A program made the translations under genes and the position numbers. 64,000 nucleotides of DNA. Origin: Edaphobacter flagellatus. GTDB taxonomy: Bacteria > Acidobacteriota > Terriglobia > Terriglobales > Acidobacteriaceae. The stretch is from positions 3,949,501-4,013,500 of the forward strand of contig NZ_CP073697.1 of assembly GCF_025264665.1 (NCBI RefSeq). The letters run 5' to 3'. The notes under the pieces are model-generated. The model was not told the origin of the DNA, made no database searches, and saw only the letters and a program-made list of their open reading frames with translations. Shown one piece after another: positions 38,054 through 53,323 of the stretch. Each line of letters opens with the position of its first letter. Within the stretch, counting starts at the first letter, position 1.

Positions 38054-39346
38054 ATGTCCGACGAACGCCGTACACGGATCCGATTTTTTCTCGCCTTTTG
38101 GCTCTTTGTTCTTAGCGGAGTAGCCTTTCTCGACCGCACCAATCTGTCTATTGCAGGTCTTGCCATCAGCCAGGAATACGGGCTGGGCAACCAGCGCCTG
38201 GGATGGATTTTCAGCGCCTTTCTGATCGGTTATGCGGGCTTTCAGCTGCCGGCCGGATGGCTGGCTGCGCGGTTCGGTCCACGGCGCGTGCTGACGCTGG
38301 GCGTCGTATGGTGGGGAGTCGCTACGGCCCTGACGGCTATGTTGCCCTCAGGCATTTCACACGCGGTCTTGCTGCTGATCTCCATTCGCTTTGCTCTGGG
38401 TGCGGGTGAGGCTGTGATCTATCCTGCGGCGAACCAGTTTGTGGCTCGCTGGGTGCCACTGGAGGAACGCGGCCTTATTAATGGACTGATCTTTGCAGGA
38501 GTAGGCGCGGGCAGCGGTCTGACGCCTCCGCTGCTGGCATGGATCATTAAGAATCAGGGATGGCGCGCTGCCTTCTGGTTCAGCGCCATTATTGGAGCGA
38601 TTGCCGGCCTCGTATGGTGGTATGCCGCGCGGGATACTCCTGAAGAGCATCCTGCCGTCTCGCAGGCGGAGTTGCGCGAGATTCGCGATGGACTGAGCTA
38701 TACGCCTGTTGGAGCTGCTGCGCCAGCCGGGCAGCAGAAACAGATCTCGTGGAGCGCCATCTTGCATCGCCGCGACCTGCCTGCACTCATGATCGGCTAC
38801 TTCAGTTTCGGCTATATCGCGTGGATCTTCTTCAGCTGGTTCTTCCTGTATATGACGCAGGCGCGTGGGTTCGATCCGAAGTCGAGTGCGTTCTATACGA
38901 TGTTTCCGTTCCTTGCGATGACGGTCTTCTGTCTTGCAGGTGGTGTGCTGAGTGACAGGCTGACGTTGAAGTATGGACTGCGTGTGGGGCGTTGCTGGCT
39001 TGCCTCGATCGCACTTCTGGCCACCGCGGTGTTTCTTGTGTTGGGATCGCAGGTTGCCAGCCCACAGCTTGCCGGCATTATTCTTGCGTGCGGCGCGGGC
39101 TCAATGTATCTCTCGCAGAGCTCCTTCTGGTCGGTCTCGAACGATATCGCGGGGCGTAGCTCAGGCATATTTTCGAGTATGGTCAACATGGGCGGACAGA
39201 TCGGCGGTGCTGTAACGGCCTCTCTGACTCCGTGGATTGCGCAGCGTTTCGGCTGGACGACATCGTTTGCGGTGGCTGCAGCACTCTCCATTTTGGGAGC
39301 GATCTGCTGGATGACGGTGCATCCTGAGCGTCCGCTGGATGCCTGA
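38054..39346 (+). CDS. ACS-family MFS transporter (sugar-acid/organic-anion type)
   Basis: 430 residues, 12 helices. N-terminal RTNLSIAGLAISQEYGL, motif GWIFSAFLIGYAGFQLPAGWLAARFGPRRVL, and FALGAGEAVIYPAANQFVARWVP match anion:cation symporters such as galactonate and hexuronate carriers. The ATG at 38054 lies 4 bases after AGGAG; the ATG at 38051 is too close to it. It is 45 bases upstream of a two-component system and the exported enzyme cluster, so it may carry that pathway's acidic product into the cytoplasm; this is inference from position. Confidence 0.85.
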   Translation: MSDERRTRIRFFLAFWLFVLSGVAFLDRTNLSIAGLAISQEYGLGNQRLGWIFSAFLIGYAGFQLPAGWLAARFGPRRVLTLGVVWWGVATALTAMLPSGISHAVLLLISIRFALGAGEAVIYPAANQFVARWVPLEERGLINGLIFAGVGAGSGLTPPLLAWIIKNQGWRAAFWFSAIIGAIAGLVWWYAARDTPEEHPAVSQAELREIRDGLSYTPVGAAAPAGQQKQISWSAILHRRDLPALMIGYFSFGYIAWIFFSWFFLYMTQARGFDPKSSAFYTMFPFLAMTVFCLAGGVLSDRLTLKYGLRVGRCWLASIALLATAVFLVLGSQVASPQLAGIILACGAGSMYLSQSSFWSVSNDIAGRSSGIFSSMVNMGGQIGGAVTASLTPWIAQRFGWTTSFAVAAALSILGAICWMTVHPERPLDA

Positions 39347-39391
39347 GGAGTTTGTAGCGCCGATGTTAGAGCGAGGCGAGTGGGGTTGCAG

Positions 39392-40900
39392 ATGACCATG
39401 CTGTCGGAGAAAGGAATTCGTGTTTGCCGATGGGCGCTGCTGGCTCTGTTGCTATGCGCTATGTCAGGGGTCCTCTTTGCCGATGATGCTGCGCAGGTGG
39501 AAACCCACGACGAGTCTCGTTTTACTCAGGCTGGCGCTGGGGTTCGCTGCATCTATCGCGACAAGCAGGGGACGGCTTGGATTGCGACTGAGGATGGCAT
39601 TGAGCGATTGACAGGGAAGACCCTCGAAGCGCTCCCGTCTGTGGGGGGCGTCTCGAGCGACATCGTGGCTCCGTTTACAGAAGACGGCAACGGAGGCATG
39701 TTCTTCATCACCTCTGCAGGACTGTTTCTGTGGGAGAAGGGAGCTGTGCGCGAGCTTCCGTTGCAGCTTCCCAAGGACGATTCGCCGGTGGCGCTCTATC
39801 GCGATCCGCAGCAGCGTGTCTGGCTCGGCACACATACCGGTGTCTATAAGCTGGTGCCGCAGCCGAAAAGCCTTTTTCAATCGCAGCCATCGCCGGCTTA
39901 CACCGCAGTTCTGAATGCGAGTATGCATGGAGCGGTGACCGCGCTGACGGGAGATGCTCAAGGAAATCTTTGGATCGGAACAAGCTCCGATGGTCTCTGG
40001 CGGCTGGATAAAGACGGCCTTGTGCGCGTGATGCGCAGTGCGCTGGGGACTGGACCAGATGCGGCTTCTGACAAGCCGACGACGCCTCCTGCTGGCGAGG
40101 GACAGCGCCTTGCGTTCTACCAGACATGGTATTTCTACGTTGCTGTTGTCATCGCGATTGTCGGTTTTTCCATGCTGTTTCTGCGCAGAAGAATGCAGCT
40201 GATGACGGGGCATCTCGGCATCATCCTGGAAGAGCGCAATCGTATTGCATCGGAGTGCCACGATACGCTGATGGCGGGCTTTGCTGCGATCTCATGGCAG
40301 CTTGAGGCGACGGCAAAACTGTTTCGCGACAGCGGATCGGAAGCAACGCCGGCGGCGAAGTCGTGCGAGCTGGCGCGCAGTATGGTGGCGCACTGCCAGG
40401 CTGAAGCGCGACGCATTATCTGGGATCTCCGCGATACGGGCGAAGTGACCGACGTGCTCTCGCAGGCGCTCTCTCGCGCATTGTCTGCGAGTCATCTTCA
40501 GGCGCCGATTGAGACGACGCTCGATGTCGAAGGCGATGAGGTTCATCTCGCGCCAGGATGTGTGCATCACCTGGTCTGCATTGGGCAGGAGGCGGTCTCC
40601 AATGCGATTCGTCACGCGCAGCCGTCGCGCATTATCGTCAATCTCCGTTATGACAGCGATGCGCTGAGCCTGTCGATTCGCGATAACGGACACGGCTTTC
40701 TTACTTCCGATCGCGCGTTATCGCGTCGCGGACATTTTGGCATTCCAGTGATGGAAGAGCGCGCACGAAAGCTCGGCGGAACACTCAAGATACAAACCTC
40801 AGTCGGTGGCGGGACGGAGGTTGTCGTGAAGGTTGCATTCAATGCAATGCAGCAGCCCGTTAACCAACAGCATCATGTGATACGGTGGATCGGAATATGA
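39392..40900 (+). CDS. NarL-type sensor histidine kinase with short propeller sensor
   Basis: 502 residues. Signal/anchor helix (about 10-30), then a periplasmic region of about 220 residues with only three or so two-component-propeller blades (RCIYRDKQGTAWIATEDGIERL, ALYRDPQQRVWLGTHTGVYKL, ALTGDAQGNLWIGTSSDGLWRL), a membrane helix (YVAVVIAIVGFSMLFL), and a kinase core: phospho-His in SECHDTLMAGFAAISWQLE and an ATPase with GQEAVSNAIRHAQP and IRDNGHGF. Typical relatives have 12-14 blades and a Y_Y_Y domain, so the sensor is reduced. Starts at 39392, 39398 and 39380 are all possible. Overlaps its regulator gene by four bases. Confidence 0.88.
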   Translation: MTMLSEKGIRVCRWALLALLLCAMSGVLFADDAAQVETHDESRFTQAGAGVRCIYRDKQGTAWIATEDGIERLTGKTLEALPSVGGVSSDIVAPFTEDGNGGMFFITSAGLFLWEKGAVRELPLQLPKDDSPVALYRDPQQRVWLGTHTGVYKLVPQPKSLFQSQPSPAYTAVLNASMHGAVTALTGDAQGNLWIGTSSDGLWRLDKDGLVRVMRSALGTGPDAASDKPTTPPAGEGQRLAFYQTWYFYVAVVIAIVGFSMLFLRRRMQLMTGHLGIILEERNRIASECHDTLMAGFAAISWQLEATAKLFRDSGSEATPAAKSCELARSMVAHCQAEARRIIWDLRDTGEVTDVLSQALSRALSASHLQAPIETTLDVEGDEVHLAPGCVHHLVCIGQEAVSNAIRHAQPSRIIVNLRYDSDALSLSIRDNGHGFLTSDRALSRRGHFGIPVMEERARKLGGTLKIQTSVGGGTEVVVKVAFNAMQQPVNQQHHVIRWIGI

Positions 40901-41520
40901 AGCAGATTCGAGTCCTGTTGATCGAAGACCATTTTCTCGCACGCGTCGCGCTCCATTCTGTGCTCTCGGGGCACCCGCAGATTCAAATCGTCGGCGAGGC
41001 GGGCGACGGCGAACTCGGCATTTCGATGTATCGTTCGCTGCGTCCGGATGTGGTCGTACTCGATCTGCGTCTGCCGCGCGTCAGCGGCTTCGATGTGATC
41101 GTTGCATTGCGTAAGGAATTTCCTACGGTGCGCATTGTTGTGCTCTCGAACTACCAGGGCAGCGAAGATATCTACCGTGCCGTACGCAGTGGCGCGATGG
41201 CTTACCTGACGAAGGACGCCAGCGGAGAAGAACTTCTCAGTGCGATTCAAAGCGTTGACCGTGGATTGCGATACCTCCCTCACGGAGCGCTCGACCGGCT
41301 TGCCGAGCGCATGCCCGCAGTCGATCTGACTCCGCGCGAGGCCGAGGTGCTGGCCTGCATTACGCAGGGGCGCAGCAACCGCGAAATCGCGGAGGAGCTG
41401 AAGATAGCAGAGAAGACCGTACGCATTCATGTCAGCTCACTGCTGGACAAGATGGGCGCTCGCGATCGCACGCAGGCAACAATTTATGCGCTGCAACGCG
41501 GCCTCGTTCACCTGGACTGA
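40897..41520 (+). CDS. NarL/FixJ-type response regulator
   Basis: 207 residues. Receiver domain with phosphoacceptor Asp56 in VVVLDLRLPRVSG and the conserved Lys in YLTKDAS, then a LuxR-type helix-turn-helix LTPREAEVLACITQGRSNREIAEELKIAEKTVRIHV. The ATG at 40897 overlaps the kinase stop. It is followed at 41 bases by the palindrome at 41561 and then by the receptor operon, so it is the prime candidate to bind that palindrome and its other copies. Confidence 0.92.
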   Translation: MKQIRVLLIEDHFLARVALHSVLSGHPQIQIVGEAGDGELGISMYRSLRPDVVVLDLRLPRVSGFDVIVALRKEFPTVRIVVLSNYQGSEDIYRAVRSGAMAYLTKDASGEELLSAIQSVDRGLRYLPHGALDRLAERMPAVDLTPREAEVLACITQGRSNREIAEELKIAEKTVRIHVSSLLDKMGARDRTQATIYALQRGLVHLD

Positions 41521-41560
41521 TCGCTCCATCCCGTTGCTGAACATCTACTTGCAGCATCAG

Positions 41561-41578
41561 TTAGGTCAAATGGCCTAA
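41561..41578. promoter_or_regulatory. Operator 1 (TAGGTCA-type palindrome) upstream of receptor operon
   Basis: TTAGGTCAAATGGCCTAA: arms TAGGTCA and TGGCCTA around AA (one mismatch between arms). 17 of 18 positions equal operator 2 at 53445, and a weaker copy occurs at 45963. It lies about 24 bases upstream of the putative -35 element at 41602, a normal place for an activator. Confidence 0.7.
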
Positions 41579-41601
41579 GAAGTGGGGCGGCAACTGTCCG
41601 A

Positions 41602-41675
41602 TTGACGATTGTTTAGCAAAGTAATCACAATCTATTCACACATAGATTGCTAGCGGTTCGCACATGGAATGTGCG
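41602..41675 (+). promoter_or_regulatory. Putative promoter and leader hairpins of receptor operon
   Basis: TTGACG at 41602-41607 and CACAAT at 41626-41631 (18-bp spacer) form a plausible promoter. An inverted repeat CAATCTA-N8-TAGATTG (41628-41649) covers the -10/start area, and CGCACAT-GGA-ATGTGCG (41659-41675) gives a stable hairpin in the roughly 125-base leader. Confidence 0.4.
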
Positions 41676-41764
41676 GATTGTTTGATTTCTTTGTCCGGCG
41701 GCAAGGGAGATGTCGCACGTTTCTGCAATACCTGCTTCATTCAGGTTTTACCCAGGAGGCTTCA

Positions 41765-44700
41765 GTGAAAAAGTTTATTTGTTGTCTCGCGCTTTTGATC
41801 GGCTCCGTATTACTCCATGCCCAGGTTGCGGATAATACGGCGCTTGTAGGAACAGTCACCGATCCTTCGGGAAGTGTTGTTGTTGGGGCGAAGGTCGTGG
41901 GCGTCAACCGCGAAACCAAGGTGGTCTACAACGGTACAACGAACACTGAAGGCTACTATTCGATTCCGTTCGTGAGCCCTGGAACCTATGACGTCACCGT
42001 CGAGATGACCGGGTTCCAGAAGATGACGTCAACCAATGTCATCGTTACGATCAATCACGCCGTCCGTACGGACTTCGCGCTTTCGGTTGGTTCGGAGACA
42101 TCCGTTGTCAGCGTCTCGGCTGATACACCTCCACTGTCGACCGATGATGCGCTCCTTGGTGAAACCATCGACTCGCAGCAGGTACACGATCTACCGATGA
42201 ATGGCCGGCACGCCATCGATCTGGCGGCGACTGCGTCCAATATTACGATCAGCGGCAATGCTCTGACGGGTAATCCTCCCGGCAACCGCGCCAGCGGCTC
42301 GGGTACGCGCAACATCAACAACAGCATCTCGCTCGATGGCATTTCGATCATGAACAACCTGATCACAACGGCCACACTCTCTCCCAATCCGGATGCTCTG
42401 AGCGCCGTGCAAACCCAGAACGGAAACTATACCGCGCAGTATGGCGACTATCTGGGCGTTCACATCAACCTTGTATCGAAGAGCGGAACCAATAAGTTCC
42501 ACGGCACGGTTTATGACTACATCCAGAATGATGCGATGAACGCTAAGGGTTGGCTTCAACCTACAACCGGACTCGCTTCTCTTAAGCCCAAGCTTCGTTA
42601 CAACCTCTTCGGTGGCGTATTGAGCGGTCCAGTTGTTATCCCCTTCCTATACAACGGGAAGGATAAGACCTTCTTCACTGGGTCATATGAGGGTCTTCGC
42701 AACAATGGTGCGACTGTGACTACAGGGACCGTTCTCACCAACAAGATGCGTACCGGCGATTTCAGCGAACTTGGTAAAGCTCTTTACAACCCCAAGACAC
42801 GCTTTACTCAGTGCTCTGCGCCAAACTTTGCATGCCCTGCGGCACAGTACGTCAATTCAATCATCCCTATCGATCCTATCGCTGCAAAGCTTCTTCCTTA
42901 TTTGGCCGCTCCTACAAACTCAGCCACTACGGGAAACTGGCAAGGAAACCTTCCTACGCAGATCAATGAAGACTCAACATTGGAGCGCTTAGATCACAAC
43001 ATCAATGGTAAAGTATCGCTCTTTGGCCGTTTCGCATGGCAGTCGGTCAATAACTTCACCCAAGCGATCAATCCTGCAAATACCGCCTATACCACGACGA
43101 AGACTCGCAACGGAGCAGCTGGCTATACCCACATCATTACGCCAAAGCTCGTAAACGATCTGCGCTTTGGATTCAACGTGGTCAATACGTTCATCCTGAA
43201 TCAGCAGGCTCAGCTTAAGCAGACGAATGCTGGCTCTGCGCTGGGTATTCCAGGCTTCACCGCCGATGTTGATAGCGGCAATCCTGGCCTGGTTGATATG
43301 CAATTAGGTGGTACTGCCGCCGCTCCTCTGTATCAAGGCATTGCCCAGACCGGAACGAACTGGTATCAGGATGACCGCCAACTTACCTGGTACGACCAGA
43401 TCAGCTATACCTTGGGCAAGCACGCTCTTATGGCTGGGATCAGCTTCCGCAAAATGACGATTGGACGTTCTGCCGCCAATACGGCGCGTGGGCAATTCAC
43501 ATTTGACGGAACCCTAAATGGAGCGACTTCAGGGACCGGCGATGCGGCGGCAGCTTTTATTGCTGGCACTCCAACCGGTTACACCTCTCCGTTCTTCCAG
43601 GTAAAGGGTTCGATCGGCCAGTGGCGTGATGGCTTCTTCATTCAGGACACCTGGCAGGTGACCCAGAATTTCACTCTGCAGTATGGTCTGCGCTACGAGC
43701 TGCCTCAGGTCGCTTACAGTTTGAATGGCGTCGGTCGCATCATGGACGCCGGTCTCACCACACTGTATCCGGCTATCGGCGGTACAACGCCTCTAAATGC
43801 CCAGAAGTATCCTGGCTTCAAGTTCAGCGGGCCTTCTCACGACAACATTAGTCCGCGTGTTGGTTTTTCCTACCGTGCAACGGATAAAATTGTGATTCGC
43901 GGAGGTGGTGGAATCTACTACAACGCGAACCAGCTCAACTCTTATACCTTGTCCTCGACGAACTACCCCTACTCGGCAGTGGTCACCCCCTCTGCTGGCT
44001 TCGGCACTACACCGGCATTCACACTCGCCAATCCGAATGTACCCGCGCCGGTAGCGTGGCCCGGTCCAGCGAATAGTCCATACGCGAACTTCGCTGTCGA
44101 TCAGAATCTGCCCACTGCTCGGATGTATCAGTGGAACATCGATATTGGTAATGAGATATGGCATAACGGCGGCTTCGAGTTGCAGTATCTGGGGTCGCGT
44201 ACGATCCACCTGGACCAGAGCTACTATCCGAACCAGCCAGCTCCTTCGCCGATTGCGTTCTCGCAGTCTCGCCGTCCCAATCCGGCGATTGGTCAGATTC
44301 GTCTGATTCATAACGATGGATTCGCAACGTATAACGGCCTCACTGCCATTCTGCGACAACGGTTGACCCGCGGTATCAGTGCAAACCTTAGCTATACCTG
44401 GTCGCATTCCATGGATACATCGGACAGCTCCAACGACGGCGGTTCTGCGATGTGGCAGGGACATTTGAAGCTTGACTACGGTAACTCGGCTTACGACATT
44501 CGCAATCGCTTTGTTGGTACTGTTACCTACGAGCTGCCGAAGTTTGAGGGGCGCAATATATTCATTCGTCAGGCTATTGGTGGATGGCAGGCGAATGCGA
44601 TCGTCGACCTCCGCAGCGGTACTCCTCTCAACATTACGATTAACTCGAATCTGGCGAATGTCGGAGGTGTAGGAGGATCTCAACGTCCGAACTACGTTCA

Positions 44701-45058
44701 CGAAAGCCACGTAACCTGCAGCCGCGGAACAGTGACTGGGCCTGGTGGATCCCAGAGAAACAGCTGCATAGATGCAACTGCTTACGCGAATCCAACCGCA
44801 GGAACCTTCGGCAACCTGCACCGTGACGCGATCAACGCACCGGGTGTAGCTAACACCAATTTTTCACTCTTCAAGAACTTTCCGATCTGGGAGACAGTCG
44901 CCTTCCAGCTTCGCGGAGAGGCCTTCAACGTCTTCAATCATCCCAACCCCGGCAGCCCGAACACCACCTTCGGTGGTCCGAGTTTCGGATTCATCACGGG
45001 AGCCAACACCAACTTTGGTTCACGTGTGATGCAGATTGCAGGAAAGATCAACTTCTAA
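41765..45058 (+). CDS. TonB-dependent receptor, Oar-like, with carboxypeptidase-regulatory domain
   Basis: Outer-membrane receptor, 1097 residues. Signal peptide ends near LHA-Q; residues about 27-110 form a carboxypeptidase-regulatory-like beta domain (NTALVGTVTDPSGSVVVGAKV); then a plug region (GLPMNGR-like HDLPMNGRHAIDL) and a large barrel ending MQIAGKINF with terminal Phe. The GTG at 41765 follows AGGAGG by 5 bases. A terminator after the gene probably makes it the most expressed member of the operon. It likely imports or binds the substrate of the exported enzymes encoded downstream; substrate unknown. Confidence 0.93.
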   Translation: MKKFICCLALLIGSVLLHAQVADNTALVGTVTDPSGSVVVGAKVVGVNRETKVVYNGTTNTEGYYSIPFVSPGTYDVTVEMTGFQKMTSTNVIVTINHAVRTDFALSVGSETSVVSVSADTPPLSTDDALLGETIDSQQVHDLPMNGRHAIDLAATASNITISGNALTGNPPGNRASGSGTRNINNSISLDGISIMNNLITTATLSPNPDALSAVQTQNGNYTAQYGDYLGVHINLVSKSGTNKFHGTVYDYIQNDAMNAKGWLQPTTGLASLKPKLRYNLFGGVLSGPVVIPFLYNGKDKTFFTGSYEGLRNNGATVTTGTVLTNKMRTGDFSELGKALYNPKTRFTQCSAPNFACPAAQYVNSIIPIDPIAAKLLPYLAAPTNSATTGNWQGNLPTQINEDSTLERLDHNINGKVSLFGRFAWQSVNNFTQAINPANTAYTTTKTRNGAAGYTHIITPKLVNDLRFGFNVVNTFILNQQAQLKQTNAGSALGIPGFTADVDSGNPGLVDMQLGGTAAAPLYQGIAQTGTNWYQDDRQLTWYDQISYTLGKHALMAGISFRKMTIGRSAANTARGQFTFDGTLNGATSGTGDAAAAFIAGTPTGYTSPFFQVKGSIGQWRDGFFIQDTWQVTQNFTLQYGLRYELPQVAYSLNGVGRIMDAGLTTLYPAIGGTTPLNAQKYPGFKFSGPSHDNISPRVGFSYRATDKIVIRGGGGIYYNANQLNSYTLSSTNYPYSAVVTPSAGFGTTPAFTLANPNVPAPVAWPGPANSPYANFAVDQNLPTARMYQWNIDIGNEIWHNGGFELQYLGSRTIHLDQSYYPNQPAPSPIAFSQSRRPNPAIGQIRLIHNDGFATYNGLTAILRQRLTRGISANLSYTWSHSMDTSDSSNDGGSAMWQGHLKLDYGNSAYDIRNRFVGTVTYELPKFEGRNIFIRQAIGGWQANAIVDLRSGTPLNITINSNLANVGGVGGSQRPNYVHESHVTCSRGTVTGPGGSQRNSCIDATAYANPTAGTFGNLHRDAINAPGVANTNFSLFKNFPIWETVAFQLRGEAFNVFNHPNPGSPNTTFGGPSFGFITGANTNFGSRVMQIAGKINF

Positions 45059-45065
45059 CGATTTG

Positions 45066-45094
45066 GCCGCCGGGTCTCCCGGCGGCTAAATTTT
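45066..45094 (+). terminator. Terminator after the receptor gene (possibly partial)
   Basis: GCCGCCGGG-TCT-CCCGGCGGC (45066-45086), then AAATTTTTT. It separates the receptor from the codirectional enzyme genes, so those depend on read-through or on their own promoter near operator 3. Confidence 0.88.
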
Positions 45095-45162
45095 TTGCAA
45101 ACCTGTCAAACCTTGGCCTAGTCCGGTAACATTTTCCTGTCTATACAAGGAGTCGTAAAGTC

Positions 45163-45954
45163 TTGAAGTATTCTTCTCTGGTTTCAGTTTTTCAGTCCCG
45201 CCTTCTTCGCATTTCAGCAGCAGCAGCCATCGTTTGCGGATCGCTCTTTACCGCAAATCTCATTGTTCATGCCGATGCGCCGAAGACGGCAGCTGATTAT
45301 CAGGCTGATCCAGCTTCCATGATCGATGCATATCGTCGTGTCGAGGCCGCATCCGTCTCCGACGCCATGGAGCAGCTGCTGCATCAGAAGCGCTACATGT
45401 CGCATCGCATGCAGTCCATTTTTCCAACCAAGTTTGCGGGAACGGCGCTTACGGTCAAGCTGGTTAAGCAGGAAAACCATGACCCCGACGCATTGAGCGG
45501 CATGCTGAAAGCGATCGACTCAGGCGGTGCTGGCTCTGTCTATGTCATGCAGGTTGAGGATGGAGCAGACATCGCCGGCATGGGTGGGCTGATGGGCACG
45601 GCGATGTTCAATCGAGGATTCGCCGGAGCGGTTGTCGATGGCGGTGTCCGTGATCTTCCCCAGTTGAAAAAGATTGGTTTCCCGGTGTACTCGACGGGAC
45701 CCGTGCCTTCGACCTCGGTCAGCCACTACAAGTTTGGCGGCATGAATATTCCGGTCGACTGCGATGGGGTTCGCGTCAATCCGAATGACATTATTGTCGC
45801 GGATCAGGACGGTGTAGTGGTTGTGCCGCGTGATCGTGCGGCTGAGATTCTGGTGCTTGCGCAGAAGCTCGATAACAGCGAGCACTCGATGTACCCATTC
45901 ATTGAAAAGTTCCACTCCATTGAAGAAGCTGTAAAGCAGTTCGGCAGAATCTAG
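45163..45954 (+). CDS. Exported RraA-like aldolase/demethylmenaquinone-methyltransferase-fold protein
   Basis: 263 residues. Start is TTG at 45163, 10 bases after AAGGAG. Signal peptide to about VHA-DA (residue 38). The RraA/HMG-aldolase fold follows: VEAASVSDAMEQL at the N-terminus, GMGGLMGTAMFNRGFAGAVVDGGVRDLPQL with the catalytic-loop Arg and Asp, and VNPNDIIVADQDGVVVVPRD. Cytoplasmic members cleave 4-hydroxy-4-methyl-2-oxoglutarate or oxaloacetate, or act as RNase E inhibitors. An exported member is uncommon and a role as a pyruvate-type aldolase/decarboxylase in the envelope is my inference from the neighbours. Confidence 0.85.
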   Translation: MKYSSLVSVFQSRLLRISAAAAIVCGSLFTANLIVHADAPKTAADYQADPASMIDAYRRVEAASVSDAMEQLLHQKRYMSHRMQSIFPTKFAGTALTVKLVKQENHDPDALSGMLKAIDSGGAGSVYVMQVEDGADIAGMGGLMGTAMFNRGFAGAVVDGGVRDLPQLKKIGFPVYSTGPVPSTSVSHYKFGGMNIPVDCDGVRVNPNDIIVADQDGVVVVPRDRAAEILVLAQKLDNSEHSMYPFIEKFHSIEEAVKQFGRI

Positions 45955-45962
45955 CGGCTCGC

Positions 45963-45979
45963 TACGTCATTTGACCCAT
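45963..45979. promoter_or_regulatory. Operator 3 (weaker TAGGTCA-type palindrome)
   Basis: TACGTCATTTGACCCAT shares the 9-base CATTTGACC with the reverse complement of operator 1 and matches it at 13 of 17 positions. Each arm (TACGTCA, and TGGGTCA read on the other strand) differs from TAGGTCA at one base, with the same 2-bp spacer. A TTTAAT at 45995-46000 could be a -10 element for the PLP enzyme gene. Confidence 0.5.
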
Positions 45980-46036
45980 GACAATGCGATCACATTTAAT
46001 TTCCCATCGAATCAACAAAATACAGGGGTAAACAGG

Positions 46037-47317
46037 ATGTCCAGCGAGAATCGCGCTCTCTTTAGCCGCCGCAGCTTCCTGCGGTGGTCGCAGTCGGCCA
46101 TGGCCATGTTTGGCGCCGCGCCGTTCCTTAGTAAGACAGCGGAAGCAGCCGCGCCAGCATCTTCGGTTACGGACTATTACGACAAGCTCGGTGTTGCGAA
46201 AATCATCAACGCTGCTGGAACCTACACGACACTGACGGCGGCGTGCATGCCTCCGCAGGTGCGTCGCGCAGTCGAACTTGCCGCGCAGCATCCAGTGCAG
46301 CTTCACGATCTGCAGGTTAAGTCCGGCGAGTATCTGGCCAAGAAGCTTCGTTGCGAGGGGGCGCTTGTTACCTCGGGCGCTTCGGGAGCCATTACGCTTG
46401 CCACGGCTGCCTGCATTACCTACGCGAATAACAGCAAGCCAGGCGCTCTGCCGCAGGATGCCGGCAACCTGAAGAACGAGGTCATCGTCCAGAAGTCGCA
46501 TCGTTACAGCTATGACCACGCGATGATGCTGAGCGGAGCCGTAATTCGCGAGGTAGTGACACTCGACGATTACAAGCGTGCTTTTAATGAGAAGACGGTG
46601 ATGACCAACTTCTTCAATGCGGCAGAGGAAGAGGATGGTCCAGTTGCGCAGATTGGCCGTGAGCAGTGGCTCGAGATTGCGCATCAGCATAATGTTCCAT
46701 GCCACATGGACGCTGCTGCAGACATGCCGCCGATTGAAAATCTGTGGAAGTACACGGGGATGGGATTCGACCTAGTCTGTTTCTCGGGCGGCAAGGGAAT
46801 TCGCGGTCCGCAGAACGCAGGTCTGCTGCTGGGTAAGAAGCATCTCACGGACCTCGCACTGCGTAATACCAATCCGAATGGCGATGCGGTTGGCCGTGGT
46901 ATGAAAGTAGCGAAAGAGCAGATCGTCGGCATGGTCGCCGCGGTTGACTGGCTTCTGGAGCAGTCGGATGAGTCAAACGAGCGCGAGTACAACAGGCGCT
47001 GTAAGGTGATCTCGGATGCAGTCAAAAACATACCGACGATGCAATCCAGCGTTGTTATTCCGAAGATTGCCAATCATGTTCCACATCTTCTGTTGAAGTT
47101 TGATCCTGCTAAGGTTGGCGTTACTGTTGCTCAGGTGCAGGAGCGGCTGCGCGCACAGAACCCACCCATTGAACTCAATCCCAACACGGGCCATAAGCCG
47201 AATCAGGGCATTCCATCGGATGCTAATACGCTGGTCATCGGCGTGTGGATGTTGCAGCCGGGCGAAGACGAGATCGTTGGTCGTCGTCTACGTGCGGCCC
47301 TCACCCAAAAGGCATAA
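46037..47317 (+). CDS. Tat-exported SelA-fold PLP enzyme (DgaE-like lyase)
   Basis: 426 residues. Twin-arginine signal SRRSFLRW then hydrophobic stretch, cleavage near AEA-AA (residue 38). The rest is a type I-fold PLP enzyme of the SelA/D-glucosaminate-6-phosphate ammonia-lyase group: KIINAAGTYTTLTAACMP, VTSGASGAITLATAACI, PCHMDAAADMPP with Asp225, and the PLP-binding Lys253 in CFSGGKGIRGPQ. Selenocysteine synthase itself is cytoplasmic and unexported, so lyase or aminotransferase-like chemistry is more likely. Start at 46037 is right at the Tat signal. Followed 31 bases later by exported RidA, which would hydrolyse an enamine/imine product. Confidence 0.87.
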   Translation: MSSENRALFSRRSFLRWSQSAMAMFGAAPFLSKTAEAAAPASSVTDYYDKLGVAKIINAAGTYTTLTAACMPPQVRRAVELAAQHPVQLHDLQVKSGEYLAKKLRCEGALVTSGASGAITLATAACITYANNSKPGALPQDAGNLKNEVIVQKSHRYSYDHAMMLSGAVIREVVTLDDYKRAFNEKTVMTNFFNAAEEEDGPVAQIGREQWLEIAHQHNVPCHMDAAADMPPIENLWKYTGMGFDLVCFSGGKGIRGPQNAGLLLGKKHLTDLALRNTNPNGDAVGRGMKVAKEQIVGMVAAVDWLLEQSDESNEREYNRRCKVISDAVKNIPTMQSSVVIPKIANHVPHLLLKFDPAKVGVTVAQVQERLRAQNPPIELNPNTGHKPNQGIPSDANTLVIGVWMLQPGEDEIVGRRLRAALTQKA

Positions 47318-47348
47318 TTCACGTTCAACACAATAAGGAGCGAATCAA

Positions 47349-47846
47349 ATGGAAAAGCAGTCGAGAAGAGGTCTTCTCAAGAGTGCCGCAAAGGCGGCTG
47401 TAGCTGTTACCGGCGGCGCAGCGCTGGCCCAGACCGCGAACGCACAGGTGTCCGGCAAGCTTGAAAAGAAGTCGATTCCGCCGAAGACCCAGGCGGATAA
47501 GGTCCCCACAACTCCTGGAAAGAAGCCGCTGTTTTCGAGCATCGTGACCTATGGCAACATGGTATTTCTTGCCGGCATTGGAGCACACTTCAAGGGAACA
47601 GTCGAAGAGCACACCAAGCACGTGCTCGAGGAGTTGGAGAAGAACCTTATCAAGGCCGGCTCTTCGCTGGAAAAGGTTCTTAAGGTCAACGTTTATCTCA
47701 ACGACCTCAAGGACTATCAGGCCATGAACTCGGTTTACGCGCAGGCCAACTGGGGCGATACTCCGCCTGTCCGTACGACCATTGCTGCCGCAGGCGGAAT
47801 CCCTGGCGACTCGCTGGTTGAGATTGACTGCATCGCTTACATGTAA
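47349..47846 (+). CDS. Tat-exported RidA-family enamine/imine deaminase
   Basis: 165 residues: a Tat-like signal (QSRRGLLKSAAKAAVAVTGGAALAQ style, cleavage near ANA-Q) then a full RidA domain from about 55. The conserved substrate-binding Arg142 (PPVRTTIAAAG) and Glu158 (DSLVEIDCIAY) are present, so hydrolysis of 2-aminoacrylate-like enamines is plausible. AAGGAG lies upstream of the ATG. It sits between two PLP enzymes of the type whose elimination chemistry yields such intermediates. Known RidA proteins are cytosolic; export is the odd feature. Confidence 0.88.
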   Translation: MEKQSRRGLLKSAAKAAVAVTGGAALAQTANAQVSGKLEKKSIPPKTQADKVPTTPGKKPLFSSIVTYGNMVFLAGIGAHFKGTVEEHTKHVLEELEKNLIKAGSSLEKVLKVNVYLNDLKDYQAMNSVYAQANWGDTPPVRTTIAAAGGIPGDSLVEIDCIAYM

Positions 47847-47874
47847 ATTTCTCTCGTAATAAGGAAAGGTATCC

Positions 47875-49485
47875 ATGTCACTCTTTCGCAAGACCCGCTG
47901 GTCCCGTCGCGATGTGCTCAAGCAAACTGGAATGCTCTCTGCGCTTGGAGCAGCGAATGCTGTTGCTCCGATAGCAGGAGTTGCTGAGGCGGCGAAGCCA
48001 GGTGAGCACAAGCTTCCTGCGCGGAGTGGCACGGATACCGATAACCTCTTTACCCGTATCGGTGTCCGCCCAATCATCAATGGGCGCGGCACCTTTACGA
48101 TCATCAGCGGTTCGCGTTCTCTGCCTGAAGTGAAGCAGGCCATGTACGATGCCTCGTTCTACTACGTGCAGCTTGACGAGATGATGAACGGCATCGGCGC
48201 GCGGCTCGGCCAGTTGATGGGAGCAGAGTGGGGAATTACCACGACAGGCTGCGAGGCGGCAATCTGCCTCGCAACGGTCGCCTGTATGGTTGGCACAAAC
48301 GTCGAACAGAGCCAGGCTCTTCCTTATATCAAGAAGAAGGATCAAGTCATTATTCCCAAGCACTCCCGCAACCAATATGACTTTGGTGTGCGCATGGTGG
48401 GAGCAGAGATCATCGAGGTGGATTCGCCGGAAGAGCTGACGGCGAAGCTCAACGACCGTGTTGCGATGATCTATATCATGTCCAATCCGGGCAATGCCAC
48501 CGGCCCGATGAGCATTAAGAACATCTGCACTATCGCAAAGACGAAGAATGTCCCTGTCTTTGTCGATGCCGCTGCAGAAGAGCCATTGAGGCCCAATATC
48601 CATATTCAGGCGGGAGCTACGCTGGTTGGATATTCCGGCGGCAAGTGCCTGCGCGGGCCGCAGTCCTCGGGCATCCTGCTCGGACAGAAGGACCTCTGCA
48701 AGGCGGCATATTTTCAGGCGGCTCCGCACCACAACTATGGGCGTGCTTTGAAGTGCAGCAAAGAAGAGGCGATGGGCATCCTCGCTGCTGTTGAGACGTG
48801 GTACAAGCGCGATCATGCGGCGGAGCAGAAGATGTGGCGCTCGTGGCTGAACACGATTGAAAACCGGCTCAAAGGTCTTCCATCCACCAGCTTCACCTAT
48901 ATCGAACCAGAGGATCTCTCCAATCGCGCTCCGACACTTCAGATCAAGTGGGATGCCAATGTGTTGAAGATTACCGGGACCGAACTTACGGCACGCCTCG
49001 ATGCCGGAACGCCGCGCATCGTTATCGGTGGCGCGCGCGGCAGGCGTCCCGACATGATGGAAAGCGCCGTCTCCGTAATGCCGTACATGATGGATCCAGG
49101 CGAAGACAAGATCATCGCCGATGCCATCTACGAAGCGCTTACGAAACCCGGCCACTATGAGAATCCCGTTATTCCTGCGGGTGAACCTGCCAAGGTTGCC
49201 GGGGATTGGGCCGTCACGATCCACTATCCGCGAGGGACAGGCGAACAGAAGTTCTCGTTGCAGCAAAACGGCAACGACGTGAGTGGAAACCACATCGGCG
49301 AAATCTACAAAGCGACCTTTAAGGGAAGCATTCACGCAGACCAGCTTGAGCTGCACAGCGGGATGGCCGTTGGTGGCAATACAATTATGTGGACTTTCAA
49401 GGGCAAGGTCGAAGGTAACGAGATCTCTGGCACCGTTAATATGGGCGAGTACGGCAATGCAACATGGACAGCCGTTCGCGCCTGA
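47875..49485 (+). CDS. Tat-exported SelA-fold PLP enzyme with C-terminal beta domain
   Basis: 536 residues. Tat signal with WSRRDVLKQTG, cleavage near AEA-AK (residue 40). SelA-fold core: RPIINGRGTFTII, GITTTGCEAAICLATVAC, VFVDAAAEEPL with Asp231, and PLP Lys257 in GYSGGKCLRGPQSSG. Residues about 440-536 form an additional all-beta domain (DWAVTIHYPRGTGEQKF, VSGNHIGEIYKATFKG, TFKGKVEGNEISGTV) absent from the first enzyme; it resembles small lipocalin-like modules appended to exported acidobacterial hydrolases. Only 28 bases from the RidA gene. It shares the fold with the enzyme at 46037 but is clearly diverged, so the two may act on successive or different substrates. Confidence 0.86.
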   Translation: MSLFRKTRWSRRDVLKQTGMLSALGAANAVAPIAGVAEAAKPGEHKLPARSGTDTDNLFTRIGVRPIINGRGTFTIISGSRSLPEVKQAMYDASFYYVQLDEMMNGIGARLGQLMGAEWGITTTGCEAAICLATVACMVGTNVEQSQALPYIKKKDQVIIPKHSRNQYDFGVRMVGAEIIEVDSPEELTAKLNDRVAMIYIMSNPGNATGPMSIKNICTIAKTKNVPVFVDAAAEEPLRPNIHIQAGATLVGYSGGKCLRGPQSSGILLGQKDLCKAAYFQAAPHHNYGRALKCSKEEAMGILAAVETWYKRDHAAEQKMWRSWLNTIENRLKGLPSTSFTYIEPEDLSNRAPTLQIKWDANVLKITGTELTARLDAGTPRIVIGGARGRRPDMMESAVSVMPYMMDPGEDKIIADAIYEALTKPGHYENPVIPAGEPAKVAGDWAVTIHYPRGTGEQKFSLQQNGNDVSGNHIGEIYKATFKGSIHADQLELHSGMAVGGNTIMWTFKGKVEGNEISGTVNMGEYGNATWTAVRA

Positions 49486-49555
49486 ACAATTTCAAGAAAC
49501 AAGGCTCGGAGAGAGTGCCTTGTCAAAGCATCGTGGTTCTAACTTGAGGAGCACA

Positions 49556-50938
49556 ATGATTCATTCACTGCGTAAACGATCCATCACCTGTTGTGCGGTT
49601 CTTTCGCTGGCCGCCTCATCTGTTTATTCCTTCGCTCAGGAGAGGATGCCGCCGCTTCCGCCGCCTCCAGCAAATATCGCCTACGATCTCATCCTGCAGA
49701 GCGGTCATGTCATCGACGATAAGAATCACATCGATTCGGTGATGGACGTCGCCATCAAGAATGGCAAGATCGCTAAGGTCGCTCCGCACATTGCCTCTTC
49801 AGAAGCACTCAAGACCATCGATGTCAAAGGCCTTTACGTCACGCCGGGTCTCATCGATCTTCACGTGCACGTCTACAGCGGTACAGGCGAAAAGAATTCC
49901 TACGCTGGCGACAATAGCGTTCCTCCCGACGGTTTTACCTTCCGCGTCGGAGTCACCACGGTTGTTGATGCGGGCTGCGCCGGCTGGCGTAACTTCGAGG
50001 ACTTCAAGGATCGCATCATTGATCGCTCTAAGACCCGCGTCCTCGCCATGCTGAACATCGTGGGTTCCGGGATGCGTGGCGATAAGTACGAGAACAATCA
50101 GGCCGACATGGACGGGGAAGCCACCGCAAAGATGGCGCTCAAGTACCCGAATGTTGTTGTGGGCATCAAGACCGCCCATTACGCCGGGCCAGAGTGGACG
50201 CCGGTCGAGCAGGCCGTCATCGCCGGCACGAAAGCCAATATTCCTGTCATGGTCGACTTCGGCAACAATCATCCCGAGAGCCGCCCTCTCTATGACCTGC
50301 TGACGAAGAAGTTGCGTCCTGGCGACATCTACACACACATGTACTCCGGCCTGCGCAATGAGCAGGACCCTGTCACGATGGGGCCCAGCAAGGCCTTCAT
50401 CGAAGGCCGCAAGCGTGGCATCTTCTTCGACACAGGCACAGGCGGTGGCAGCTTCAAGTTCTCGCTCGCAGTACCCATGGTCAAAGATGGTTTTATTCCG
50501 GACTCCATTTCGACGGATCTTCATATCGGCAGCATGAACGGTGCAACCAAGGACGAGCTCAATGTCGCCAGCAAGATGATGGCGATTGGCATCTCCTTGC
50601 AGGAGGCGGTGGCCGAAATGACCTCGCATCCGGCGCGCGAGATCAAGCATGAAGAACTAGGCAATCTCTCCGTCGGTTCCGTTGCCGACGTCGCGGTGCT
50701 TCGCCTGGAAGAAGGCCACTACGGTTTCACCGATATGGTCAATGGCCGCCTCGACGGAACGAAGAAGCTGACTGCCGAGATCACCATCAAGGACGGCAGG
50801 ATCGTCTATGATCTCAATGGCATGGAAGCAGACAAGTGGGATGCTCCGGCCGATCCCAACGCAGCCTACGCCTATCGCTGGACGACCTTCGCGCCCCGTG
50901 TGCGTCAAGTACGTCCGAGCGACAACAATCGTCACTAA
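49556..50938 (+). CDS. Exported amidohydrolase/deacetylase (Atu3266/EF_0837-like)
   Basis: 460 residues with a signal peptide (cleavage near SFA-QE). Binuclear metal ligands of the amidohydrolase fold are in place: HVH (His103, His105), probable carboxylated Lys205 in GIKTAHY, His208/His261 (YTHMYSG) and Asp321 in STDLHIG. The family is often encoded next to SelA-like proteins in other bacteria and includes N-acyl or ester hydrolases. GAGGAG precedes the ATG at 49556; the open frame extends upstream into the PLP enzyme gene without meaning. It ends the plus-strand operon and would supply the free amine to the PLP enzymes. Confidence 0.88.
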   Translation: MIHSLRKRSITCCAVLSLAASSVYSFAQERMPPLPPPPANIAYDLILQSGHVIDDKNHIDSVMDVAIKNGKIAKVAPHIASSEALKTIDVKGLYVTPGLIDLHVHVYSGTGEKNSYAGDNSVPPDGFTFRVGVTTVVDAGCAGWRNFEDFKDRIIDRSKTRVLAMLNIVGSGMRGDKYENNQADMDGEATAKMALKYPNVVVGIKTAHYAGPEWTPVEQAVIAGTKANIPVMVDFGNNHPESRPLYDLLTKKLRPGDIYTHMYSGLRNEQDPVTMGPSKAFIEGRKRGIFFDTGTGGGSFKFSLAVPMVKDGFIPDSISTDLHIGSMNGATKDELNVASKMMAIGISLQEAVAEMTSHPAREIKHEELGNLSVGSVADVAVLRLEEGHYGFTDMVNGRLDGTKKLTAEITIKDGRIVYDLNGMEADKWDAPADPNAAYAYRWTTFAPRVRQVRPSDNNRH

Positions 50939-50954
50939 ACTTCCTGGTCGCAGC

Positions 50955-50986
50955 AAAATGGCTCAGCATATGCTGAGCCATTTTTG
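50955..50986. terminator. Bidirectional terminator, perfect 30-bp palindrome
   Basis: AAAATGGCTCAGCAT and its exact reverse complement fill 50955-50984, with T/A runs on both ends. It closes both the plus-strand enzyme operon and the convergent lactonase operon. Confidence 0.92.
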
Positions 50987-51004
50987 TTTGTCATACGATT
51001 GCGT

Positions 51005-52159
51005 CTAGACGAAGACAATACACTGCGGCCGCGACAACGGGAAGCTCTTGCCGTCGTTCGCCAGTTTGCCGGTCTTAGGGTCGCGTGCAAATACAGAAAG
51101 ATTGTCGGTTGCCTGATTTGCGACCAGCAGCCATTTACCGCTTGGAGACAATGCAATATGCCGCGGGGTCTTGCCTCCGCACGAGGTTCTCTCCATGAGC
51201 GTCAGCTTCCCATCCGCTGGCGATATCGAGAACGACACCATAAAGTCATCCAGGCGGTTTGCGACGTACACAAAGCGGCCCTTCTTATCCATCACAATGT
51301 CCGACGGAGCAGACGGTCCCTGATGTCCCTCCGGTACCGTCGAGATCAATTGCACGGTTGTGAAGACACCCTTCTTTTTGTCCCACTGCAGCACGTTGAC
51401 CGACGAGCCCACTTCATTTACGCAGTAGGCCCACTTATGGTTCGGATGGAAGAGCAGGGAACGCGGCCCTGAACCAGGCTCGGCCTTCCACGCAGGAGGA
51501 TCTTGCGCCGTCAACTTCGCTGTCGATGCGTCCAGGTGATAGACGTGAATTTCGTCCAGTCCCAGATCGTTCACAAAGAAATATTTGTTGTCCGGAGAAA
51601 CCGTCGCGCGATGGCCCCGCGGCCCCTTCTGCTGCGGCATCGGACCATGGCCCTCGTATTGAAAGAACGAGACCGCCTCGCTCAACTTGCCGCTCGGGTC
51701 CACGGCAAACGATGCAGCGCTGCCTCCGCCATAGTTCGCGGCAAAGACGCAACGGCCCGTATGATCGACGCTGACATGGCACGTCCCCGAGCCTTTGGCG
51801 GACACTTCATTGATCTTCGTCAGCTTCATCGTGCTGCGATCGACAACATAGCTTGAGACAGCACCGCTTCGCTTGCCTTCGTACTGATTCAGCTCATTGG
51901 CTGTAAACAGAAACTTGTGGTTTGGCGACAAGGCGAGAAATGTTGGGCTATCGGCCTCTGCTGCCAGCGCAGTCTGTTTCAGCTCGCCGGTCGCCTCATC
52001 GAAACTGTACGCATAAATACCTTTGCTCGTCTGTCCTGTCTGCGTTCCTACAAACAACATGCGCTCACCGGAATGCTTTGCCCAGGCTGGAGAAGCTCCA
52101 AGCACCGCAGCTGCCGAGGCTCCGTGAAGAAATCCACGCCTCGATATCTTCGTTGACAT
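51005..52159 (-). CDS. Tat-exported lactonase-family beta-propeller
   Basis: 384 residues: Tat signal ISRRGFLHG, cleavage near AWA-KH, then a seven-bladed propeller of the 6-phosphogluconolactonase (YbhE/Pgl) type: MLFVGTQTGQTSKGIYAYSFD, PTFLALSPNHKFLFTANEL, GTCHVSVDHTGRCVFAANYGGG, PRHIALSPSGKWLLVANQATDN. Phosphorylated sugars are unlikely periplasmic substrates, so it may hydrolyse a free sugar-acid lactone. Second gene of a two-gene minus-strand operon, 42 bases after its paralogue, and convergent with the enzyme operon. Confidence 0.85.
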   Translation of the reverse strand: MSTKISRRGFLHGASAAAVLGASPAWAKHSGERMLFVGTQTGQTSKGIYAYSFDEATGELKQTALAAEADSPTFLALSPNHKFLFTANELNQYEGKRSGAVSSYVVDRSTMKLTKINEVSAKGSGTCHVSVDHTGRCVFAANYGGGSAASFAVDPSGKLSEAVSFFQYEGHGPMPQQKGPRGHRATVSPDNKYFFVNDLGLDEIHVYHLDASTAKLTAQDPPAWKAEPGSGPRSLLFHPNHKWAYCVNEVGSSVNVLQWDKKKGVFTTVQLISTVPEGHQGPSAPSDIVMDKKGRFVYVANRLDDFMVSFSISPADGKLTLMERTSCGGKTPRHIALSPSGKWLLVANQATDNLSVFARDPKTGKLANDGKSFPLSRPQCIVFV

Positions 52160-52201
52160 CGTCTCTATAGCTCCTTGTTGAGTTCGTTTGCGGCAGAGGC
52201 A

Positions 52202-53323
52202 CTAACTATAAATGACCTGAAGGCAGATCGGTGCTTCGACGCGCGCCAGCAAGCGCGCATTGCTCACCGCACCGGTTGCGTCCAGCGAAGCTCCCCAGAT
52301 CGCTCCACGCTCTTTATTGATGGTGGTGATGTACCTTCCGTCATCCGACAATGCAAGTGCCTGTAGCACTCCCATCTCTTCTGCCTGACGGCCTGCCATC
52401 TTCAGTTCGCCGGTCGATGGATTGACCTTCCATGCTGCAACACCGCCGCCTGCATCGCATGCGAAAAGAGATCTTCCCGATGGATGCACCGCGAGTACCT
52501 CCGCACCATCCGTCACCCCGGAGAATGCAAGATGTTGCCGCATCGTTGCTACATGTCCGGCTTCGTAGTTGTACTCGTAGCTCTGCAACGAATCTCCATG
52601 CGCCACGAAGAGCAGCTTCCCTTCAGGAGCAAAGGCAAGATGCCGCGGTCCATCCCCTTGTTGCGTGGCGCTCAGCGTGTGCGGAATCAGTCCATCGCCA
52701 TGCGCAAGAGTGCGCAGTCGCGAGGTCCCCTGATCGGCACTCACAATGCGGCCGACACGATCAAAGGCCGTAGCGCGAGGCTGCGTCGTGCGGCCATCGC
52801 TATCCCCCGTCTCCTTCAGAATTCCTGTAACGCGACCTACAGATCCGTCGTCCTCGATCGCCAGCGTGTTGTATACGCCGCCACCGTGTGCTGCGACTAC
52901 AAGCTTTTTGCCATCGTGCGACACTGCCATATGCCGCGGCATCGTCGCCGACAGCGAAAGCTCCTGCCTATTGAGCTTCGTCAACGTTCCATCAGGGTTG
53001 ATGGCGAATGCCTCCACGGTGCCTCTGGGCAGCCCGCGATACTCCGCTATTTCATTGGCCGCGTACAGTACACGTCCGTTCGGTGCCAGCGCCAGTGCAG
53101 CAGGACGTGCGCTGGCTATGCTTTGAATCTTCTCGGCACGACCTCCGCGAATGGCGAAGACCTCAATCGTGCCTGCCCCGCTGCCTGCATAGGCGACAGC
53201 ATGCTTCGGCGAGCCGATACCTTGGGCGAAGGCCATCGACGAAGCTAACCCACGTGCAGAAAGCGCTGTCGCACCCATCACCTGAACGAAGTTTCTCCTG
53301 CTCCAGTTCCTCTGTTCACTCAT
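52202..53323 (-). CDS. Tat-exported lactonase-family beta-propeller (paralogue)
   Basis: 373 residues: Tat signal WSRRNFVQVMG, cleavage near AFA-QG, then propeller blades such as PAALALAPNGRVLYAANEI, PRHMAVSHDGKKLVVAAHGGG, PRHLAFAPEGKLLFVAHG and VLAVHPSGRSLFACDAGGG. Distant from the neighbour at 51005 in sequence but of the same fold and length. It is transcribed first; a TATATA at 53376-53381 could be its -10 element, with no good -35, and operator 2 lies a further 70 bases upstream. Confidence 0.84.
   Translation of the reverse strand: MSEQRNWSRRNFVQVMGATALSARGLASSMAFAQGIGSPKHAVAYAGSGAGTIEVFAIRGGRAEKIQSIASARPAALALAPNGRVLYAANEIAEYRGLPRGTVEAFAINPDGTLTKLNRQELSLSATMPRHMAVSHDGKKLVVAAHGGGVYNTLAIEDDGSVGRVTGILKETGDSDGRTTQPRATAFDRVGRIVSADQGTSRLRTLAHGDGLIPHTLSATQQGDGPRHLAFAPEGKLLFVAHGDSLQSYEYNYEAGHVATMRQHLAFSGVTDGAEVLAVHPSGRSLFACDAGGGVAAWKVNPSTGELKMAGRQAEEMGVLQALALSDDGRYITTINKERGAIWGASLDATGAVSNARLLARVEAPICLQVIYS

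Follow-up and report, generated by a model that had tools for sequence, protein, structure and literature searches.

A conserved gene cluster of Edaphobacter flagellatus predicts an exported route for amino-sugar acids

Introduction

The closest described counterpart of the genes considered here is the ong cluster of Pseudoalteromonas prydzensis, which serves oxidative chitin utilisation and converts the C1-oxidised acid of N-acetylglucosamine (GlcNAc1A) into 2-keto-3-deoxygluconate (KDG) and ammonia with no prior phosphorylation (PMC9537276; OngB also PMC12017989). Its RidA protein, OngD, is required for growth in a role that is unexplained (PMC9537276). The present analysis concerns a gene cluster within a 64,000-nucleotide stretch of the Edaphobacter flagellatus genome (contig NZ_CP073697.1), called the window; all coordinates are positions in it unless a contig or locus (C1, L, G) is named. 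The cluster is best read as a counterpart of the marine ong pathway that would be exported and assembled from other enzyme families. We know of no earlier case in which amino sugars are catabolised in the periplasm.

Three further systems bear on this reading. DgaE, a pyridoxal 5'-phosphate (PLP) enzyme, eliminates water from glucosaminate-6-phosphate, after which the enamine is protonated by His-163; the His-162/His-163 pair is described as strictly conserved in DGL, and the H163A variant as fully active yet letting the enamine go, with a transient at 293 nm (PMC9529869). NagOx of Ralstonia solanacearum (7zzk) oxidises N-acetylglucosamine (GlcNAc) and N-acetylgalactosamine (GalNAc) at C1 (PMC9850908). 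PvdN and PtaA are PLP enzymes of pyoverdine maturation that the twin-arginine translocation (Tat) system carries folded across the inner membrane (PMC6206403). An earlier sequence-only reading of this DNA had held PLP lyases and RidA to be cytosolic in all pathways known to it. As a general rule for PLP enzymes this is too strong in view of these two, though they tailor pyoverdine and do not catabolise it.

Predicted export of the cluster enzymes

The cluster includes seven enzyme genes. The RraA-like protein (45163..45954, + strand, TTG start; PF03737, 1.2e-39) and a COG3964-type amidohydrolase, a candidate N-deacetylase (49556..50938, + strand; NF006689, 401.6 bits, above the cut-off of 371), have hydrophobic N-termini that resemble signals of the general secretion (Sec) system. 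The other five carry Tat-type motifs. These are SRRSFLRW in SelA1, a DgaE-like PLP enzyme (46037..47317, + strand; TIGR01437, 1.4e-48, below cut-off), SRRGLLK in a RidA-family enamine/imine deaminase (47349..47846, + strand; PF01042, 5.6e-21), SRRDVLK in SelA2, a second DgaE-like PLP enzyme (47875..49485, + strand; TIGR01437, 3.5e-41, below cut-off), and SRRGFLH and SRRNFVQ in two lactonases. Lac1 is a lactonase with a seven-bladed propeller (51005..52159, - strand; PF10282, 1.5e-110), while Lac2 is a diverged lactonase-type propeller (52202..53323, - strand) that matches the 6-phosphogluconolactonase model NF008258 weakly, with 53.5 bits against a cut-off of 370.

Export signals were scored by motif, hydropathy and eye. 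The sequence-only claim that all seven enzymes carry Sec or Tat signals was borne out, and the signals are kept by orthologues, so that the refuting case named with that reading, a general lack of such signals in orthologues, does not arise. The set of SelA-type proteins comprised 127 members, reduced to 114 by de-duplication at 99.5% identity with the window's own copies counted. The Tat test (RR-x-hydrophobic plus a hydrophobic stretch) was positive for every SelA1 (23/23) and SelA2 (28/28) orthologue, for 10 of 11 proteins of a third type, SelA3, for 27 of 38 others and for 0 of 14 HH-type DgaE proteins. Relatives of RidA show RRxL or RRxM in 16/16 rows, those of Lac2 RRx(F) in 10/10, and those of Lac1 a twin-arginine motif in 10/11, the eleventh (L053) being a partial match from residue 287. 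An N-terminal stretch with a mean hydropathy of at least 1.6 is found in 17/17 rows for RraA and 17/17 for the amidohydrolase; the rows for RidA, the lactonases, RraA and the amidohydrolase include some genomes entered twice. Judged from these sequence patterns, an envelope location of the cluster enzymes is supported as a prediction.

Conservation in relatives

Recurrence of the gene set in other Acidobacteria, which the sequence-only reading had proposed as a check, was found in relatives within Edaphobacter, Granulicella and Terriglobus. The order kinase, regulator, receptor, RraA, SelA1, RidA, SelA2, amidohydrolase recurs in Edaphobacter aggregans DSM 19364 (L032) and many other relatives. 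Named carriers also include Granulicella tundricola MP5ACTX9 and Terriglobus roseus DSM 18391 (L034, L035), the latter with no amidohydrolase adjacent, that is, within the stretch examined. The set is divided into two facing runs in genome G003, where a NagOx homologue sits between RidA and Lac2, and in G005 no RidA was found on the contig carrying the cluster. SelA2 is present in 11/41 relatives. Among 396 genomes of the phylum it occurs in 15 at about 60% identity or more, and in 36, from 18 of 210 genera, when matches at E 1e-60 with identity down to about 35% are counted. Two records whose titles name Hyphomicrobiales and Rhizobiales also contain it; these are L033, which is a metagenome bin, and L040.

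Plasmid pACIX902 of G. tundricola MP5ACTX9 (NC_015065.1) holds the cluster on one strand, from ACIX9_RS20550 to RS20500, in the order major facilitator superfamily (MFS) carrier, kinase, regulator, receptor, RraA, SelA1, RidA, SelA2, amidohydrolase/deacetylase, lactonase, NagOx. SelA1 is annotated there as 'aminotransferase class V', SelA2 as 'PLP-dependent transferase' and NagOx as a BBE-domain protein. After the cluster, the same strand carries a propeller fragment with a Tat signal and a gene of the beta-galactosidase family; ahead of it on this strand are a GH125 and an alpha-L-fucosidase gene. From these flanking glycosidase genes, the source may be glycans of glycoproteins or walls.

SelA2-like proteins of rhizobial plasmids (about 28-32% identity in the rows listed) were considered as further carriers of the cluster and rejected, their neighbours being methyltransferase and asparagine-synthase genes; this neighbourhood was read in a single region, out of 206 matching records other than that of G. 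tundricola. The distant SelA2-like protein of a Sinorhizobium numidicum plasmid (L197:5869-7509), with methyltransferase, formyltransferase and asparagine-synthase neighbours, looks biosynthetic.

The SelA-type PLP enzymes and RidA

Both SelA proteins fall below the curated TIGR01437 cut-off of 385.3 bits, at 165.7 bits for SelA1 and 141.3 bits for SelA2. The PLP lysine (SGxK motif) aligns in all rows but the truncated L171. At the columns of DgaE His-162 and His-163, SelA1 has A-A, residues of A/S type, and SelA2 has N-P; pairwise alignments shift SelA1 slightly at these positions, likewise without a His. Only 14 of the 114 SelA-type proteins, all HH-type, have a His at DgaE position 163, and none of the 14 has a RidA gene within 1.5 kb. 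Among the 51 SelA1 and SelA2 orthologues His-163 occurs in none, and RidA lies within 1.5 kb of 41. By type, RidA is within this reach, inside which some loci end, for 19/23 SelA1, 22/28 SelA2, 9/11 SelA3 and 9/38 other proteins. The absence of His-163 together with the presence of an adjoining RidA gene would fit release of the enamine, with RidA as helper.

RidA itself scores 75.2 bits to PF01042 (Ribonuc_L-PSP) against a cut-off of 27.3, and the aligned Arg and Glu, which we take to be active-site positions, are kept. SelA2 has an extra all-beta C-terminal domain (about residues 441-536; window 49195-49482) in all 25 aligned sequences. The predicted structure models are of moderate confidence, with mean predicted local distance difference test scores of 81.6 and 83.4. 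Among the best 3 to 25 of up to 2,200 literature matches per listing, export was described neither for a RidA nor for a SelA-type lyase, which is weak evidence of absence.

A second exported pair is present in the window genome, where a Tat-signal RidA-like protein is followed by a Tat-signal SelA3 (L052:9259-11244, equal to G000:C1:2300258-2302243); the pair is found in several relatives and adjoins an amidohydrolase in L047 and L114. HH-type DgaE genes without Tat signals were found at 14 loci (L151-L164); these come from 13 genomes in a sample of 299 drawn from the phylum to which G426 belongs.

The amidohydrolase and the RraA-like protein

In the amidohydrolase the HxH motif, Lys206, His209, His262 and Asp322, presumably the metal ligands, are invariant across 22 sequences. 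Orthology with OngB was considered and rejected on residue alignment and fold comparison. The RraA-like protein belongs to a metal-aldolase/decarboxylase family, and its GVRD aligns with the 4-hydroxy-4-methyl-2-oxoglutarate/4-carboxy-4-hydroxy-2-oxoadipate (HMG/CHA) aldolase 3noj, G-x-R-D being a motif of such aldolases of the RraA fold. Its score of 103.1 bits is below the equivalog cut-off of 179 (NF006731). The role of oxo-acid aldolase that the sequence-only reading gave it in the chain is unproven, since the product may go to cytosolic KdgK and Eda instead.

Co-occurrence with NagOx and downstream sugar-acid genes

The best PDB match of the flavin adenine dinucleotide (FAD) oxidase in the G003 cluster is the N-acetyl-D-hexosamine oxidase 7zzk (577.1 bits; the second-best match scores 255.6). 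Among the 41 genomes, each of the 11 with SelA2, and no other, has a homologue of this oxidase. The hypergeometric chance of the overlap, with ancestry ignored, is 3e-10, or 3e-5 when the count is limited to the 18 genomes of the genus with at least 4 Mb. Across the 396 phylum genomes, 16 have the NagOx homologue, 15 SelA2 and 14 both; SelA2 stands without the oxidase in G141, and the oxidase without SelA2 in G176 and G287. As controls, glycoside hydrolase family 20 (GH20) was found in 28/41 genomes (10/11 with the cluster, 18/30 others) and alpha-L-fucosidase in 36/41 (11/11 and 25/30). Where NagOx and SelA2 are both present (19 genomes), they lie within 20 kb in 12, on different contigs in 3 and further apart in 4, the window genome among these last. 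The linked arrangements vary between genomes, which argues against a single frozen neighbourhood.

Two NagOx homologues were found in the window genome, outside the window, at C1:709213 (674.8 bits to 7zzk, next PDB chain 259.3) and C1:365519 (585.5 bits, next 271.1). Across 20 homologues, the residues of bicovalent FAD attachment are kept in 20/20 (Cys123) and 19/20 (His64), both being present in both window-genome copies, and the active-site residues Tyr66, Asp383, Gln410, Tyr459 and Tyr462 in 20/20. The N-acetyl pocket residues vary (Leu251 identical in 1/20, Val334 in 0/20, Gln381 in 1/20, with position 251 hydrophobic in 17/20), so GlcNAc and GalNAc can only be candidate sugars. A hidden signal peptide on NagOx was looked for by eye in the upstream frames of 20 loci and pACIX902, and none was seen. 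An auxiliary activity family 10 (AA10) lytic polysaccharide monooxygenase (LPMO) was considered as the enzyme that forms the acid and rejected, since none of the 41 genomes has PF03067; other LPMO families were not searched. The region of the second NagOx copy (L120, G000:C1:700500-720400) also contains two TonB-type receptors and two Tat-signal proteins that by eye resemble sugar-isomerase-like TIM barrels.

In one relative (G002), genes for a PfkB KDG-kinase-like protein and a 2-keto-3-deoxy-6-phosphogluconate (KDPG) aldolase lie directly downstream of the amidohydrolase gene, on the same strand and with no visible signals. The best models of the kinase, a KDPG-aldolase/kinase fusion and a KDG/2-keto-3-deoxygalactonate (KDGal) kinase, both score below their cut-offs, and the KDPG/2-keto-4-hydroxyglutarate (KHG) aldolase scores 202.9 bits to TIGR01182, above the cut-off of 156.05. 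Homologues of the two are adjacent in the window genome (C1:250997-252803; 56% and 65% identical). In G176, which is without SelA2, NagOx and Lac2 face Eda and KdgK (L129:8852-13325), which may represent the route in a simpler form. The substrate proposed by the sequence-only reading, an N-acylated amino-sugar acid or lactone, is supported as the likely one by NagOx co-occurrence and linkage and by the kinase and aldolase genes of G002.

Proposed pathway and alternatives

The observations comprise gene content, conservation, export motifs, family residues, the co-occurrence and linkage of NagOx, and the KdgK and Eda homologues; from them we infer every reaction, the substrate, the step order and the transport described below. 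We give about an even chance to a non-phosphorylated route in the envelope that would break down the aldonic acid formed when an N-acetylhexosamine, GlcNAc or GalNAc, is oxidised at C1. The receptor would take the substrate into the periplasm, the lactonases would open the lactone, and the amidohydrolase would take off the acetyl group. SelA1 and SelA2, exported by Tat folded with their PLP, would then eliminate water from C2-C3 and release the enamine, because the proton-donating His-163 of DgaE is missing. The co-exported RidA would hydrolyse the enamine or imine to ammonia and a 2-keto-3-deoxy sugar acid of KDG type, which the MFS carrier would import for cytosolic KdgK and KDPG aldolase. 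The more specific proposal of a periplasmic amino-sugar catabolism, in which Tat-exported lyases without the enamine-quenching His work with a RidA of their own and the enamine is cleared outside the cytoplasm, is offered tentatively.

Several points weigh against enamine release with RidA as helper. The pattern of His-163 and RidA is largely one split between clades, and a His is present elsewhere in the aligned stretch in 5/23 SelA1 and 11/11 SelA3 proteins. Cap15, which we take to be the O2-dependent PLP enzyme of the capuramycin pathway, has the same fold and also seems to be without the His pair. As to the pathway as a whole, with no visible signal on NagOx, oxidation and exported catabolism may be two arms rather than one chain.

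The last point leads to the alternative that survives best, which we consider possible but somewhat unlikely, namely that cytosolic NagOx makes the acid or lactone while the exported enzymes use acids from other organisms, or acids that are leaked or exported, the two being co-inherited for one niche. The absence of a visible signal peptide from NagOx, beside neighbours that have one, and its lack of linkage to the cluster in the window genome speak for two compartments. Its place between RidA and Lac2 in G003 and in a same-strand run in pACIX902 speaks against them and suggests joint expression. This alternative does not conflict with the best reading as far as the exported enzymes are concerned. 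Slightly less probable is the same chemistry with another substrate, an exported deacylase-deaminase route acting on N-acyl-D-amino acids, hydroxy amino acids or compounds of muropeptide type from soil organic matter. The generic names of the nearest amidohydrolase structures would allow it, but the sugar C1-oxidase and lactonases that co-occur and are linked with the cluster, the KDG-type kinase and aldolase and the sugar-acid-type MFS carrier point to sugar acids.

An exported PLP oxidase pathway is improbable. In it SelA1, SelA2 or both would be O2-dependent like Cap15 and would act in the periplasm on an amino acid, by oxidation or decarboxylation, with RidA hydrolysing the imine or enamine. 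SelA2 is nearer to DgaE (4.7e-27) than to Cap15 (1.7e-22) by sequence, and the kinase-like and aldolase genes of G002 match the needs of a KDG-yielding lyase. Fold matches were tried as a decider between lyase and oxidase and were unable to separate the two. Finally, over-reading of the N-terminal motifs in enzymes that are cytosolic is very improbable, for although the export case consists of motif and hydropathy tests, all 51 SelA1 and SelA2 orthologues and 16/16 RidA rows have the signal or its RR motif but 0/14 HH-type DgaE proteins do.

Soil holds a large pool of nitrogen in the amino sugars of fungal and bacterial walls and of glycoproteins, and Acidobacteria rank with the most common bacteria there. 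If the envelope-located route is true, the release of ammonia, the PLP chemistry and the reactive enamines would lie outside the cytoplasm. It would also give a testable reason for the RidA genes beside such lyases, suggest a role for OngD, and account for genes annotated merely as 'PLP-dependent transferase', 'RidA family protein' and 'RraA family protein'.

Gene layout and neighbouring genes

Nine + strand genes follow in series, for the MFS carrier, kinase, regulator, receptor, RraA-like protein, SelA1, RidA, SelA2 and amidohydrolase. The MFS carrier is of D-galactonate-transporter type (38054..39346, + strand; PF07690, 9.7e-64; TIGR00893, 221.5 bits, below the cut-off of 395), and its tblastn relatives, 71-83% identical, lie upstream of the kinase in loci that extend that far. 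The sensor histidine kinase has two-component propeller repeats (39380..40900, + strand; Reg_prop, HisKA_3, HATPase_c), and its gene is overlapped by that of a LuxR/NarL-type response regulator (40885..41520, + strand; Response_reg, GerE). After a terminator-like hairpin of 14 pairs from a consensus scan (41652..41682, + strand) comes a TonB-dependent-type outer-membrane receptor (~41765..45058, + strand, with its start codon inferred; PF25183, 2.1e-206), whose N-terminal domain is carboxypeptidase-regulatory-like (PF13620, 2.6e-17). The profile matches confirm that a TonB-type receptor, a two-component system and an MFS carrier adjoin the enzyme genes.

Intergenic gaps from RraA to the amidohydrolase are 82, 31, 28 and 70 bases. 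A further terminator-like hairpin of 13 pairs (50955..50984) lies between the convergent amidohydrolase and lactonase genes. The hairpin scan gave 10 sites in the region against a shuffled mean of 14.1, and only the 14-pair and 13-pair stems are notable. The lactonases are probably not in one transcript with the + strand genes, because they are on the opposite strand and convergent, with the 13-pair hairpin in between. Of the earlier picture of seven consecutive enzyme genes, the families and adjacency hold, but the two lactonases stand on the opposite strand behind the hairpin. A Tat-signal protein, DUF1501-like by eye, is encoded at 56818-58158, and a homologue 87-89% identical lies near the cluster in G010 and G076.

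Comparison with known systems

The amidohydrolase family of the cluster includes the COG3964 structures 2ogj, 2ics, 8je0 and 8wzy, whose titles read 'dihydroorotase', 'adenine deaminase' and 'novel amidohydrolase'. SelA1 and SelA2 share with DgaE the SelA-like fold, the PLP lysine and, in their proposed reaction, ammonia loss from an amino-sugar acid; DgaE takes a 6-phosphate substrate and has His-162/His-163, whereas SelA1 and SelA2 have Tat signals and no His-163. NagOx has homologues in the relatives and in the window genome, with varied N-acetyl pocket residues. PvdN and PtaA perform biosynthetic tailoring, and the available excerpt mentions no exported RidA with them, whereas catabolism is proposed for the present cluster and its RidA has a Tat signal.

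The likeness to ong lies in the joint presence of amidohydrolase, PLP enzyme, RidA and outer-membrane receptor genes, ong having a KDG kinase as well; the roles given to the genes here are putative. OngC is of fold type III and OngB of subtype V (Cys/His/His), whereas the PLP enzymes here are of fold type I (SelA/DgaE) and the amidohydrolase is of COG3964. The ong route starts with an LPMO and has a sodium-solute symporter and the repressor OngR, whereas here there are NagOx-like oxidases, no PF03067 LPMO was found, and a two-component system is present. The sequence-only reading had suggested that the module would be a new kind of catabolic module. A set of amidohydrolase-superfamily deacetylase (OngB), PLP deaminase (OngC) and RidA (OngD) is already known from ong (PMC9537276), and what would be new is the predicted location, since OngB and OngC are predicted to be cytoplasmic, whereas the enzymes of the present cluster look exported by their Sec- and Tat-type motifs.

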